Source of the DNA: Lysobacter soli | Lineage (GTDB): Bacteria > Pseudomonadota > Gammaproteobacteria > Xanthomonadales > Xanthomonadaceae | Length of the DNA stretch: 64,000 nt | Assembly: GCF_003382285.1 (NCBI RefSeq) | Contig: NZ_QTJR01000007.1 | Span: forward strand, 62,001 to 126,000 | Direction: 5' to 3' | Part shown: positions 11,806-62,569 of the stretch, piece by piece | How positions within the stretch are numbered: the first letter of the stretch is position 1 | Layout: the number at the start of each line of letters is the position of its first letter | Translations under genes and position numbers: made by a program | Notes under the pieces: model-generated | What the model was told of the DNA's origin: nothing | The model's input: only the letters and a program-made list of their open reading frames with translations | Databases searched by the model: none

Positions 11806-13698
11806 ATGGACTTGTCCGCAGTGCGCCCCGCGCTCGGCTGGTGGACGGTGTCGGCCCTGATCGTGGCCGCGCTGCTGCTTGCCGCGCTCGCACTGTTCGT
11901 CCTGCGAGAACGCATTCCCGCGCACTGGCAGCAGCCGGTGCGTGCGCTCGTCTTCGGCGTGAAGATCGACGACGACATCCGCATCGCGATGCCCGACGGC
12001 ACGCACCTGGCCGGCACGCTGTATCGCCCGCGCAACGTCGACGGCCCGCTGCCCACGGTCTACGTCCGCCTCCCCTACGACCGCCGCCGTTACGGCGAGG
12101 CCATCGGCGAAGGCCTGTTCTTCGCGCGCAACGGGTACGCCGTGTTGTTGCAGGACGTACGCGGCAAGTTCGAATCCGAAGGCGACGACTTCCTGCCATG
12201 GCGGCACGCCACCGGCGACGGCGTCGCCACGCTCGACTGGATCGTCCGCCAGCCGTGGTCGAACGGGAAGGTCGGCACGATCGGCTGCTCGGCGCTGGGC
12301 GAACTGCAATACGCGCTCGCGCGAGCGAACCATCCCGCGCATGCGGCGATGATCCCGATTGCCGCCGGCGGCGCGGCCGGCGACGTGGACGGCCAAGCCG
12401 GCTACTTCGGCGCGTTCGAAGGCGGCGTCTTCCAGCTGGCGGGTGCGGCGGGCTGGTTCGCCAAGCACGGGATGAAGGCCGACCACCGCCCGTGGCCGAA
12501 CGACCTCGACATGGCATCGGCGCTGCCGACACTGCCGGCGATCGACGTCGTCAAGCGCGTGCGGCCCGGGGCGAACGGCTTCCAGGACTTCCTGCAGACG
12601 CCGCTCGGCGACGCACGCTGGCGCGCGCTGGACTACGTGTTCTCCGACGACCGCCCGACCACGCCGGCATTGGTGGTCGATACCTGGGGCGATCCCAGCC
12701 TGGCCGGCACGCTCGCGCTGACCGAATCCGTGCGCCGGCATTCGCCCGACGCGGCGCGCGCGCAGCACGTGCTGATTGCGCCGGGAAACCATTGCGAACA
12801 GGAACTCGTCGTCGGCATGGGAAAGTTCGGCGAACTGCCGGTGCGCAACGCGGCGCAGCCGTATCGCGACTACTACCTCGCATGGTTCGACCACTGGCTG
12901 CGCGGGCGCGGCGACGGCCTCAAGGCGCTGCCGCCGTATCGCTATTTCGTGCTCAACGAACAGCGCTGGCTGGACGCGACGCAATGGCCGCCGGCCGAAG
13001 CGCGGCCGCAGTCGTGGTACCTGTCGAGCAACGGCCACGCGAACAGTCGCGACGGCGACGGCGTGCTCGCGCTGGAAGCCGCGCGCGAGATCCGCTCCGA
13101 CGACTTCATCCACGATCCGACGGATCCGGTTCCCTCGCGCGGCGGCCCGCTGTGCTGCACGGGCGATCCGAACCAGCGCGCCGGCCCGGTCGACCAGCGC
13201 GACGTCGAGACGCGCAAGGACGTGCTCGTCTACACCTCCGCGCCGCTGCAGCAGCCGCTGCGCATCGTCGGCAAGCTCAGCGCGCAGCTGGTGGTGTCGT
13301 CGACCGCGCCCGATACCGACTTCGTCGCGCGCCTGGTGCACGTGTGGCCCGACGGCCGCGCGACGAACATCCAGGAAGGCGCGTTGCGCGCACGCTACCG
13401 CGACGGCGTCGAACGCCCGAGCCTGATGACGCCGGGCCAGCGTTACGTGCTGGACGTGCCGATGCGGTCGATCGCCTACCTCGTTCCCCGCGGCCATCGC
13501 ATCCGGCTGGACATCAGCAGCTCCAGCTTCCCGCGACTGGAGCGCAATCTCGGCACGGGCGGTCGCAACTACGACGAAAGCGTCCCGTCGAAAGCGCTGA
13601 ACCGCGTCTTCCACGGCGGCGATGCGGTGAGCTTCGTCGAGATCCCCGTGCTCGACCTTCCGGTGCCGGACGAGAGGACGTTCCCGGGGCCGCGCTAG
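11806..13698 (+). CDS. Membrane-anchored CocE/NonD (X-Pro dipeptidyl-peptidase, S15) family hydrolase
   Basis: About 630 residues: a single N-terminal membrane helix (about 12-36), then an S15-type alpha/beta-hydrolase domain with the nucleophile elbow GTIGCSALGELQYA (Ser at the GxSxxG position), RLPYDRRRYGE, and a later APGNHCEQ that probably supplies the His. A C-terminal jelly-roll part follows (PLRIVGKLSAQLVVSSTAPDTDF and GHRIRLDISSSSFPRLERN). The family includes cocaine esterase and acyl-peptide hydrolases; the substrate cannot be told. A TTG six bases upstream is an alternative start. The stop shares the four bases CTAG with the convergent gene. Confidence 0.87.
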   Translation: MDLSAVRPALGWWTVSALIVAALLLAALALFVLRERIPAHWQQPVRALVFGVKIDDDIRIAMPDGTHLAGTLYRPRNVDGPLPTVYVRLPYDRRRYGEAIGEGLFFARNGYAVLLQDVRGKFESEGDDFLPWRHATGDGVATLDWIVRQPWSNGKVGTIGCSALGELQYALARANHPAHAAMIPIAAGGAAGDVDGQAGYFGAFEGGVFQLAGAAGWFAKHGMKADHRPWPNDLDMASALPTLPAIDVVKRVRPGANGFQDFLQTPLGDARWRALDYVFSDDRPTTPALVVDTWGDPSLAGTLALTESVRRHSPDAARAQHVLIAPGNHCEQELVVGMGKFGELPVRNAAQPYRDYYLAWFDHWLRGRGDGLKALPPYRYFVLNEQRWLDATQWPPAEARPQSWYLSSNGHANSRDGDGVLALEAAREIRSDDFIHDPTDPVPSRGGPLCCTGDPNQRAGPVDQRDVETRKDVLVYTSAPLQQPLRIVGKLSAQLVVSSTAPDTDFVARLVHVWPDGRATNIQEGALRARYRDGVERPSLMTPGQRYVLDVPMRSIAYLVPRGHRIRLDISSSSFPRLERNLGTGGRNYDESVPSKALNRVFHGGDAVSFVEIPVLDLPVPDERTFPGPR

Positions 13699-15689
13699 AC
13701 GCCGAACGGATACGTCTCCGGCACCTGCGTGTCGTCGCGTTCCGGCGCGGCGATCGCATGCACCGCCTGCGTCTTGTCGAACCAGACGTAACCGTCGTAC
13801 TGCCGCGCGAGCGATGCGCGCGCGTAATGGCTTTGCAGCTCGGTGTCGGGGCGGTAGATCACGCCGATGAAGCGCTGCAGGCGCGGTTCGGACAACGCGT
13901 GTCGCAGCGCCTCGCCATGGCCTTCGCGGAGGTCTAGGAGGAAGCGTTCGATGCCGCTGTCGTGGCACAGCCGCTCCACGCTGCCAGCGCGCGACGGACG
14001 TACGTCCATCACTTCCATCTCTTCGCCCCAGTCGTGCGCGGCGGCGACGGTGCCGGCGTGCGTGCCGAAGCCGATCAGCGCCGCTTCGCCTGAATGCCGC
14101 TGGCGAACGAGCTGGCCGATGTTGTGCTCGCCGCGCGACTGGCCCATGTCGGTGTGGCGCGCGTCGCCGATGTGCGAGTTGTGCGCCCACACCACCGCGC
14201 GCGAACGTGGGCCGTGCGCGCGCAGCAGCAGGTCGAGCGTGTCCGCCATGTGCTCGTCGCGCAGGTTCCAGCTTTCCGCGCCGCCGTAGTACATCACGCG
14301 GTAGTAGCGTTCGGCCGAGGCGACCAGGCGCGCGTTCTGCGCGGCGTCGAGATGGTCCGGCTCGAGTTCGTCGATATCGCCCAGTCGTTCGTCGAGCAGG
14401 TCGCGACACTGCCGCACCACCGCTTCCTCGCACATCGCGTGCCCCGCGCGCAGCGCGGCGCGACCGTAGACTTCCGGCGAACTCTGCCAGGGCGTCAGGC
14501 AACCGTAACGTTCGCGCGCGACGGCGGCTGCGTCCGGATCGGTGCGATCGAGGTAGTCGAGCACCGCCTCGATCGATGCATCGAGGCTGTAGATGTCGAG
14601 GCCGTAGAAGCCCACCTGCTCGGTGTATTCGCGTCCCTGGTTGTAGCGGCGCATCCAGCCGGCGAGCGCGGCGACTTCACGGTTGCGCCACATCCACGTC
14701 GGAAAGCGCGCGAACACCGCGCCGTGCGGCCGCGGCGGCAGGTGCCGCACGTGGCGATTCACGACCGATGCGTCGGGCCAGTCGGCTTCCACCGCGACCA
14801 GCGTGAAGCCATGCCGCTCGACCAGCCGCTGCGTGATCGCGGCCCGTGCGGCGTAGAACTCCGATGTGCCATGGCTGCATTCGCCCAGCAGCACGACGCG
14901 CGCGTCGGCGAAACGTTCGAACGCGTCGGCGAAGGCTTCCTCGTCGATAGCGGGCAGCGGGATGGCGTGTTCGGCCACGAGCGATGCGGCATCGTCCGCG
15001 CGCGCTGGGGTTGCGCGACGGCTCGCCGCGCGGCGGCCATCCTCGGCCCAGCCCTGCTCGCCGACCAGCGGAACGAACATCACCGCGCCGAGGTCTTCGC
15101 GTTCGAAGGTGTCCTGGCCGGTACGGACGACCTTCGTCAGCTCCTGCACGTCGCCGTCGTCGCCGACGGGAATGACGAGTCGCCCGCCGATGGCGAGCTG
15201 CGCCTGCAACGCCTGCGGCGGCGCGGGTGCGCCCGCGGCGACGACGATGGCGTCGAATGGCGCGGCGTCGGGCCAGCCGCGACTGCCGTCGCCGGTGTGG
15301 ACGTCGATGTTGTCGTAGCCCAGCTGCGCGAATCGCGCACGCGCTTCGTCGGCGAGCGAGGCATGGCGTTCGATGGTGTGCACCTCGCGCGCGAGGCGCG
15401 ACATCACGGCCGCGGCATACCCCGATCCGGTGCCGACTTCGAGCACGCGATCGCCGGGTTCGATGTGCGCGGCTTCCAGCATCAGCGCGACGATGTACGG
15501 CTGCGAGATCGTCTGGCCCTCGCCGATGGGCAGCGCGCTGTCCTCGTAGGCGAACTCCTCCATGCCGGCCTCGACGAAGCGTTCGCGCGGCACCTCCGCC
15601 ATCGCGGCGAGCACGCGTGCATCGCGCAATCCACGCGCTGCCAGGTGGCTGCGCACCATGCGCATGCGCGCGGCATCGAATGCGGCCAT
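13695..15689 (-). CDS. Fusion: protein-L-isoaspartate O-methyltransferase plus erythromycin esterase domain
   Basis: 664 residues. Residues 1-215 form a PIMT domain: SQPYIVALML, the SAM loop VLEVGTGSGYAAAVMSRLA and GDGSRGWPDAAPFDAIVVAAGA. Residues about 235-650 form an erythromycin-esterase-like domain: VLLGECSHGTSEFYAARA, VAVEADWPDASVVNRH and VVWAHNSHIGDARHTDMG, which hold the Glu and His residues of that family. PIMT repairs isoaspartyl residues in aged proteins. EreA-like domains hydrolyse macrolide lactones, but many homologs are not resistance enzymes. The start at 15689 (MAAFDAARMRMV) has AGGA just upstream and matches PIMT N-termini; an ATG at 15734 lacks a ribosome site. A separate PIMT gene lies at 29049-29822. 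Confidence 0.9.
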   Translation of the reverse strand: MAAFDAARMRMVRSHLAARGLRDARVLAAMAEVPRERFVEAGMEEFAYEDSALPIGEGQTISQPYIVALMLEAAHIEPGDRVLEVGTGSGYAAAVMSRLAREVHTIERHASLADEARARFAQLGYDNIDVHTGDGSRGWPDAAPFDAIVVAAGAPAPPQALQAQLAIGGRLVIPVGDDGDVQELTKVVRTGQDTFEREDLGAVMFVPLVGEQGWAEDGRRAASRRATPARADDAASLVAEHAIPLPAIDEEAFADAFERFADARVVLLGECSHGTSEFYAARAAITQRLVERHGFTLVAVEADWPDASVVNRHVRHLPPRPHGAVFARFPTWMWRNREVAALAGWMRRYNQGREYTEQVGFYGLDIYSLDASIEAVLDYLDRTDPDAAAVARERYGCLTPWQSSPEVYGRAALRAGHAMCEEAVVRQCRDLLDERLGDIDELEPDHLDAAQNARLVASAERYYRVMYYGGAESWNLRDEHMADTLDLLLRAHGPRSRAVVWAHNSHIGDARHTDMGQSRGEHNIGQLVRQRHSGEAALIGFGTHAGTVAAAHDWGEEMEVMDVRPSRAGSVERLCHDSGIERFLLDLREGHGEALRHALSEPRLQRFIGVIYRPDTELQSHYARASLARQYDGYVWFDKTQAVHAIAAPERDDTQVPETYPFGV

Positions 15690-15806
15690 CTCGTCCTGTC
15701 GCGTGTGGGCTGCCCCATTGATGCCCACGCGCATGTTATGCGCCGGTCACGCGCGCGGCGCGAACCCTTCACCTGTTCGTTCCGTCGCACGCGGTAGGCT
15801 ACACGT

Positions 15807-15917
15807 GCCTGGAAAGGAGGTCCCACGAACGAAAGTTCATGATCCTCGACAGGCAACCGACAAGCGTTCCGCTTGTCACGACCGCCAGGCGATTCAGCAC
15901 CGCCTGGCGGTTTTTTT
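15807..15917 (+). ncRNA. Free-standing structured RNA candidate with exposed Shine-Dalgarno-like motif
   Basis: Three consecutive hairpins end in a strong intrinsic terminator. First a GNRA-type hairpin, GAAC-GAAA-GTTC (15827-15838), then GACAAGCG-TTC-CGCTTGTC (15859-15877), then the 11-bp terminator stem. The 5' part contains GGAAAGGAGGT (15811-15821), a full anti-rRNA sequence with CsrA-like GGA motifs. Both flanking genes are on the reverse strand and the next forward gene is 900 bases away, so this is not a leader. TAGGCT at 15795-15800 could be a -10 box; no good -35 was seen. A short frame from ATG 15839 runs through the terminator and is unlikely to be coding. Confidence 0.6.
15881..15917 (+). 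terminator. Strong intrinsic terminator of the RNA candidate
   Basis: ACCGCCAGGCG (15881-15891) pairs perfectly with CGCCTGGCGGT (15901-15911) across a 9-base loop and is followed by a run of T to 15917. It is forward-directed, although the neighbouring genes are on the reverse strand. Confidence 0.9.
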
Positions 15918-15954
15918 ATGCGTGTGTTTTCGGCAGACGCGATGTCGCGCGCAT

Positions 15955-16731
15955 TCAGAAGCCGTAGCGCAGGAAGCCGCCGTCCACGGCGATGCATTCG
16001 CCGGTGATGTAGCCCGCGGCCGGCAGGCACAGGAACGCGATCGCCGCAGCGACTTCCTCCGGTTCGCCGATGCGCCCGAGCGGCGTGCGCAGCAGGACCT
16101 CGTCCAGGTAATCCGGATCGGCGAGCTTGTCCGACGTGCGGCGCGTGCGGATGTACCACGGCGCCACCGCGTTCACGCGCACGCCGTCTTCGGCCCATTC
16201 GACGGCGAGGTTGCGCGTCATCTGGTGCATCGCCGCCTTGCTCATGCCGTACGGCGCGCCGGTTCGCACGTGCGTGGTGCCCGACACGCTGCCGACGTTC
16301 ACGATGCTCGACGACGCATGCCTGGTCAGCAGCGGATGCGCGTAACGCGACAGTTCGAACGCGGAGAACACGTTCACTTCGAACACCTGCCGCCACTCGT
16401 CCTCTGTGTAGTCGGTGGCGGCCTTGGTGAGGTTGCCGCCGGCGTTGTTCACCAGGATGTGCAGGCCTTCGCCGAAATCCTCGACCCAGTCGAGCAGTTC
16501 GCGGCGCTGCTCGTCGTCGGCGACGTCGGCGACGAAGGCCTGCACGTCGCGTTCGGGGAAATCTTCCATGAGCTCGGCGCGCACCGCGTCGAGCCCGGCG
16601 ACATCGCGCGCGGCGAGCAGGACGTCGGCGCCGAAACCCAGCAGCTCGCGTGCGACCGCGCGGCCGATGCCGGCGCTGCCGCCGGTGACCAGGGCCAGCT
16701 GGCCGTCGAGGCGCCAACGCTTGGGATCCAT
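15955..16731 (-). CDS. SDR family oxidoreductase (tropinone reductase-like)
   Basis: 258 residues, classical short-chain dehydrogenase length. The NAD(P)-binding motif is TGGSAGIGRAVARELLGFG near residue 16, then NNAGGN, the active-site Ser in VNVGSVSG and the YGMSK Tyr/Lys pair, ending with the usual ITGECIAVDGGFLRYGF. The Asp/Arg pattern after the second strand (AARDVAG) suggests NADP. The closest family groups include plant-type tropinone reductases and 3-oxoacyl-ACP reductase-like enzymes; the substrate is unknown. The start at 16731 (MDPKRW) is 95 bases from the divergent lipoprotein gene, so the two probably share a promoter region. Confidence 0.9.
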   Translation of the reverse strand: MDPKRWRLDGQLALVTGGSAGIGRAVARELLGFGADVLLAARDVAGLDAVRAELMEDFPERDVQAFVADVADDEQRRELLDWVEDFGEGLHILVNNAGGNLTKAATDYTEDEWRQVFEVNVFSAFELSRYAHPLLTRHASSSIVNVGSVSGTTHVRTGAPYGMSKAAMHQMTRNLAVEWAEDGVRVNAVAPWYIRTRRTSDKLADPDYLDEVLLRTPLGRIGEPEEVAAAIAFLCLPAAGYITGECIAVDGGFLRYGF

Positions 16732-62449: not shown

Positions 62450-62569
62450 TAAAAAGCCCCGCAGGCAGGGGGGGCCGGCGGGGCTGGGGAGCGGGACCTG
62501 GGGAGGGGCCTTCGCTCCGGGATCACTCCAGGGGAGGGAGAGATCGGCGACAGGCGTTGCACCTGTCGC
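62450..62569 (-). ncRNA. sX13-like C-rich small RNA downstream of polA
   Basis: On the reverse strand: TATAGG (62577-62572) as a plausible -10, then a GCGACAGG/CCTGTCGC hairpin (62569-62547), C-rich unpaired stretches (CTCTCCCTCCCC, GGCCCCTCCCC) and a terminator. Length about 115 nucleotides. Location after polA, in the same direction, matches Spot 42 in E. coli and ErsA in Pseudomonas. The C-rich loops and size fit Xanthomonas sX13, a Hfq-independent virulence regulator, as I remember it. The identity is inferred. Confidence 0.65.
62451..62485 (-). terminator. Terminator of the sX13-like RNA
   Basis: AGCCCCGC (62455-62462) pairs with GCGGGGCT (62478-62485) and is followed on the reverse strand by TTTTTATTTT. 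Confidence 0.85.

Follow-up and report, generated by a model that had tools for sequence, protein, structure and literature searches.

Introduction

Decoy RNAs of the CsrB/RsmX/Y/Z type are intergenic, structured RNAs with repeated ANGGA motifs, and Qrr and OmrA/OmrB are families of sibling small RNAs (sRNAs). For sX13 (RF02232), a published study reports that its C-rich loops repress mRNAs and that Hfq is not required (PMC3771888). RsmU (sRX061) of Xanthomonas campestris is described as an RsmA-binding sRNA that is processed from the comEA 3′UTR and is reported to be limited to Xanthomonas (PMC7694677). No paper about Lysobacter sRNAs was found in the open-access literature, as represented by titles and the starts of abstracts, with subscription journals and preprints mostly outside that coverage.

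Here we analyze an RNA encoded on the plus strand at positions 15807-15917 of a 64-kb window, the whole stretch of Lysobacter DNA under study. Comparison of its relatives makes it very likely that this RNA represents a real, new sRNA family that is limited to the genus and is of a familiar kind. It resembles sX13 in its length of about 110 nt, in its three stable stems with apical loops, the third of which is a terminator, and in being a stand-alone gene; it differs from sX13 in having no Rfam match and no CCCC loops, in its genomic place and in its narrower range. RsmU is found in the same bacterial family and is reported to have GGA motifs, whereas the Lysobacter RNA lacks conserved GGA and comes with a promoter of its own. 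With the CsrB/RsmX/Y/Z decoys the RNA shares an intergenic location, a structured fold and some GGA, but not the repeated ANGGA, and no decoy family in Rfam matches it. The presence of three diverged copies in one genome (designated G005), two of them with the same promoter plan, recalls Qrr and OmrA/OmrB, although the G005 copies are much more diverged and are seen in one genome only.

Predicted Structure of the RNA

A three-hairpin unit had been noted at 15807-15917 in a preliminary description of this DNA, and the predicted fold agrees with these coordinates. It has a hairpin with a GAAA loop, an 8-bp hairpin, and a terminator with a 12-bp stem and seven T. The minimum free energy (MFE) of the segment is -55.3 kcal/mol, compared with -31.3 kcal/mol (sd 3.6) for shuffled sequences (z -6.6; 0 of 200 shuffles were as good). 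The unit opens with the outer strand of stem 1, and its last element is the run of seven T.

Stem 1 (15807-15854) is formed, in both the MFE and the centroid fold, by an outer pairing of GCCUG with CAGGC and an inner pairing of GAGG (15817-15820) with CCUC (15844-15847), and its apex reads GAAC-GAAA-GUUC (15827-15838). The 5′ segment GGAAAGGAGG, which had been described as exposed, is so in part: GAAAG is predicted to be free, while GCCUG and GAGG are paired within stem 1. Stem 2 (15859-15877) has 8 bp and reads GACAAGCG-UUC-CGCUUGUC. Stem 3 (15880-15917) is the terminator hairpin, with the 12-bp stem and the T run; its conserved, unpaired apical loop AUUCAGCAC (15892-15900) is a candidate site of contact with targets. 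A simple terminator scan returned one site, a shorter alternative hairpin of stem 3 at 15899-15911 (0.4 sites expected by chance). The U run of the terminator, the one feature considered with regard to a possible Hfq dependence, is interrupted in the G003, G007, G008 and G009 copies, a point against the sRNA reading favoured below.

As described before, both flanking genes lie on the minus strand. One encodes a protein-L-isoaspartate methyltransferase (PCMT) fused to an erythromycin-esterase domain (13695-15734), and the other a short-chain dehydrogenase (SDR; 15955-16731) that is convergent with the RNA.

Distribution among Relatives

When 99 relatives were searched at the DNA level, 11 gave matches: the genome of origin, eight further genomes of its genus, and G076 and G017, whose short hits were judged to be due to chance after inspection. 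Since G004 and G011 are identical at the RNA locus, the nine syntenic copies comprise eight distinct sequences, and these eight were used to build covariance model R1; a second model, R2, was built from ten sequences, two of them from G005. When 395 genomes of the family were scanned, R1 matched ten of the 12 genomes in the genus, plus three others weakly, while R2 retrieved the same ten genomes, a third G005 copy and seven weak matches elsewhere (E 0.002 to 0.04). Most strong matches are the very sequences from which the models were built; the exceptions, which played no part in building the model that detected them, are copies a and b of G005 for R1 and copy c for R2. In nine of the ten carrier genomes, the RNA lies beside the same SDR gene, and in the tenth, G005, three diverged copies are found on three other contigs.

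Under the strict filters used, neither model revealed a convincing copy in the 383 family genomes outside the genus; distant copies could be missed in these two large scans because of that stringency. The weak matches outside the genus resembled, at the loci inspected, coding DNA or plain terminators, and the promoter described below was absent from those in family genomes. Laxer model scans of the 12 genus genomes and 39 relatives gave no further accepted copy, and none was found in the genus genomes G006 and G010. Candidates for a second copy elsewhere in the genus (L032, L033 and L042-L050) were rejected because the promoter is missing from all of them, L032 having no more of it than a CNTCAC at -36. 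In 25 further genomes, including G005, G006 and G010, no copy lies next to the SDR gene (R2 gave 11 matches there, the best with 14.4 bits and E 0.075), and nothing in the plasmid and phage collections matched the RNA. A search of a named-genome collection with the terminator pattern retrieved L. arvi, L. changpingensis, Lysobacter sp. MMG2 and Lysobacteraceae bacterium P, four Lysobacter-type contigs that are not counted beyond the ten genus genomes, as well as a Citromicrobium match that was judged to be a chance one after inspection.

No match to 15807-15917 was obtained in Rfam 15 at the gathering score. When positions 15700-16000 were compared with Rfam at E up to 10, NsiR1, STnc310 and RT-15 appeared, all at chance level and below their cut-offs. 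Membership in the sX families, raised in the preliminary description, is thus not borne out by comparison with the Rfam covariance models: the sX13 model has its sole match in the window at 62450-62558 and none at 15807-15917, and the loops of our RNA (GAAA, UUC and AUUCAGCAC) are not the C-rich apical loops that are a feature of sX13. The sX13 gene of the window lies on the minus strand (74.9 bits) and is present in 12 of 12 genus genomes; upstream of it, the stretch TCTTCACGAACCATCCATGT is invariant in 11 aligned sequences, with G011 left out.

Compensatory Changes in the Stems

Of the 34 pairs, 10 are changed on both sides among the eight distinct syntenic copies, compared with a mean of 4.4 after shuffling (0 of 500 shuffles as high) and with at most 3 in slid controls. 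When two G005 copies were added (10 sequences), 16 of 34 pairs were changed on both sides (shuffled mean 6.9; 0 of 500 shuffles as high; slid controls at most 4). Kinship among the alignment rows inflates the shuffle test, and two further points favour the structure: the pairs counted were derived in part from the same sequences, and the second alignment had been adjusted to the model. Such double changes are found at some pairs of stem 1, at 4 of the 8 pairs of stem 2 and at 5 of the 12 pairs of stem 3. Further pair types do not stand out, either in the eight sequences (18 vs 17.5 after shuffling; 256 of 500 shuffles reach 18) or in the ten (26 vs 23.2; 62 of 500 reach 26). RNAalifold, predicting freely, gave 30 pairs, 6 of which were changed on both sides, and its covariation term was small (-1.08 of -35.19 kcal/mol). 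The least well supported region is the inner portion of stem 1: it has other tops in G003 and G007, the register of GAGG/CCUC slips between species, and, by eye, G007 has GAAG/CUUC in its place. Judged from the aligned relatives, the three-hairpin fold is maintained by compensatory changes, the very check that had been proposed for it.

A Conserved Promoter Upstream of the RNA

The RNA is preceded by a 66-bp promoter, GTTA-N8-TCA-N17-CNTCACC-N21-TANNCT. From GTTA through the -10 element, the nine syntenic copies align over 66 bp without gaps, and 26 of the 66 columns are invariant in the eight distinct sequences (GTTA.G......TCA.GC..G...CG......CTTCACC......T..........G...TA..CT). On the plus strand of the window, the upstream box GTTA-N8-TCA occupies 15735-15749 (GTTA at 15735-15738, TCA at 15747-15749) and the element CTTCACC, 21 bp 5′ of the -10, occupies 15767-15773; both are invariant in 9 of 9 syntenic copies. 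They are followed by a -10-like hexamer, TAGGCT (15795-15800; consensus TANNCT), whose T, A, C and T are invariant. The 5′ end of the RNA would lie about 7 nt past this hexamer. No sigma-70 consensus promoter was found by a simple scan.

The 395 family genomes were searched with the promoter pattern, which had been written after G005 copies b and c had been seen. With at most one mismatch allowed, the pattern was found at 11 places in 10 genomes, all of them RNA loci and two of them G005 copies; a control search with the backward pattern found 0. The upstream neighbour varies among genomes while the promoter stays. The PCMT fusion precedes the RNA in G000, G001 and G002, and another minus-strand ORF, then the fusion, does so in G007; in G003, G004, G009 and G011, a plus-strand S15-type hydrolase stops 14 to 27 nt before the promoter, and in G008 it stops about 66 nt before it. 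These changes mark the 5′ border. Neither neighbour, therefore, explains the conservation. The PCMT fusion is near the RNA in 4 of 9 syntenic genomes and so was gained or lost beside it. Since the promoter is both conserved and specific to RNA loci, it follows that the sRNA gene is self-contained rather than a leader, a tail or a 3′UTR product.

The promoter probably lacks a good -35 element and would depend on an activator for which the GTTA/TCA and CTTCACC boxes are the binding sites. The boxes stand at 11-bp steps, which suggests, by analogy, an activator of the OmpR/PhoB type; this phasing would presumably suit a response regulator of that kind. An activator shared with sX13, whose promoter has an invariant CTTCACG, was considered and rejected, as CTTCAC is common in the window and the GTTA spacing differs. 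The 64-kb window has 51 CTTCAC, compared with 20.8 expected from shuffles.

Three Diverged Copies in G005

The G005 copies a, b and c (loci L022, L026 and L061) lie on three contigs, none of them at the usual place; the SDR orthologue is on a fourth contig, apart from all three. R1 detected copy a with E 3.0e-8 and copy b with E 2.1e-4, and R2 detected copy c with E 3.0e-6. Their neighbours are a DUF1232 gene, one for a glycine-rich protein that lacks any Pfam match, and one for a CBS-domain protein; a further gene of the SDR type is about 0.8 kb away from copy b. Copies b and c could be linked, because both are near contig ends (10.8 and 10.1 kb away, respectively).

Of the 26 invariant promoter columns, 19 and 20 are matched at copies b and c, compared with 15 and 14 at the next best positions in the 600-nt flanks. 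The GTTA/TCA boxes are present at the same spacing in these two copies, one of which has TCG for TCA, and the counterpart of CTTCACC is CATCACC in both. At copy a, it is CTTCACA, 21 bp 5′ of CACGCT, and no promoter match rises over background there (13 of 26 columns near the right place, 14 elsewhere). The promoter match lies 71 nt before the model start in copy b and 93 nt before it in copy c; in the latter, the model match begins 23 nt inside stem 1, of which a 9-bp stem can be read by eye from the copy's own letters, so the promoter is about 70 nt before stem 1 as read. Inspection by eye also indicates that in the G005 copies the stems are kept and the apical loops differ. As far as these matches go, the promoter and the RNA recur together at other G005 loci.

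Discussion

The arrangement of a stand-alone, intrinsically terminated sRNA, in which a conserved structured RNA is flanked by a promoter and a terminator of its own, is seen here in sequence conservation. We are highly confident that 15807-15917 is a genuine non-coding RNA gene, and the compensatory changes, the conserved promoter and the terminator lend good support, at the sequence level, to the earlier proposal of a stand-alone small RNA.

A trans-acting RNA is the likeliest reading, because the copies share no short ORF, the window copy has no same-strand gene to lead, and the G005 copies are on three contigs. The RNA would act by loop-mediated base pairing, as sX13 does, and the 9-nt terminator loop AUUCAGCAC would be the likeliest contact site. 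This loop is identical in 8 of 9 syntenic copies (G008 has one inserted C) and is predicted to be unpaired in all 8 distinct syntenic sequences. All three G005 copies carry other letters in this loop and may act on different targets. Counting the RNA's own locus, the genome has nine matches to the 9-nt complement of the loop. In an approximate reading of ORFs, none of the eight others was recognized immediately ahead of a start codon; one is about 93 nt inside a gene that we take to be mreB-like, and another (L116) is where no ORF was called. Targets may use seeds shorter than 9 nt. On balance, we consider it probable, with some reservation, that the locus is an independent, intrinsically terminated sRNA gene acting by base pairing in trans.

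An alternative is that a protein, such as a ProQ-like chaperone or another regulator, is held or titrated by the conserved stems and not through a seed loop. The maintenance of stems with different loops in G005 would fit this, as would the GC-rich, highly structured nature of the RNA and the short U tail of several copies; the terminator loop, however, is near-invariant in the syntenic copies though unpaired, a constancy that binding through stems alone would not call for, and we regard a protein-binding role as unlikely, if the strongest of the alternatives. It is less probable still that the element acts in cis, as an antisense RNA or terminator for its neighbours (the SDR 3′ end, the PCMT 5′ region or, in relatives, the S15-type hydrolase 3′ end). 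The RNA is indeed opposite the SDR-PCMT gap, and the same-strand hydrolase ends shortly before the promoter in the four relatives named above. Yet PCMT is not within 1.5 kb at 5 of 9 syntenic loci, the promoter is itself conserved, and the G005 copies are beside other genes and on contigs other than that of the SDR orthologue, the SDR-type gene near copy b notwithstanding.

Sequestration of RsmA, proposed in the preliminary description, is not supported, and we consider a RsmA/CsrA decoy quite improbable. The window copy has two GGA, one of them as ANGGA, in keeping with such a role; the second is predicted to be about two-thirds paired, and GAGG is paired in stem 1. GGA occurs 0 to 4 times per copy (2, 2, 3, 2, 2, 1, 2, 0 and 1 in the nine syntenic copies, the G003 copy having none; 1, 1 and 4 in the G005 copies), and ANGGA 0 times or once in each of 11 sequences (8 distinct syntenic and 3 from G005), none of which has the several conserved ANGGA motifs in loops that would be expected of a CsrA/RsmA-sequestering RNA. 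GGA counts alone are not decisive against RsmA binding, because a RsmU mutant with all four GGA changed is reported to have still bound RsmA (PMC7694677). Beyond the GGA in some copies, we see nothing in the sequences that would favour RsmA binding. The suggested leader-like peptide can be dismissed with near certainty: ATG 15839 has GGAGG upstream and opens a 42-codon frame in the window, but it is present in only 4 of 9 orthologues (G000, G001, G002 and G009) and gone in G004, G011, G008, G003 and G007, its frame reads through the terminator, no closed ORF of at least 9 codons is common to the copies, and the next gene downstream is not on the same strand, so that the conserved short ORF and same-strand downstream gene of a leader peptide or attenuator are both lacking.

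Returning to the sRNA acting by base pairing, its most interesting part, which lies beyond the coordinates first noted, is the set of three diverged copies in one species, two with a shared promoter plan. One might speculate that this is a young sRNA family in which a cassette of promoter and RNA moves and duplicates under one dedicated activator, the stems staying and the apical loops changing after duplication, with the result that a single scaffold gives rise to new sets of targets; we put this forward tentatively, as a possibility rather than an expectation.

The RNA adds to Lysobacter an sRNA family that has a well-marked promoter and no counterpart in Rfam 15 at the gathering score. Its narrow range, with copies at the same spot in nine genomes, none found in G006 and G010, and three diverged copies in G005, makes up a small natural series, which could show how sRNA genes arise, duplicate and change their contacts.
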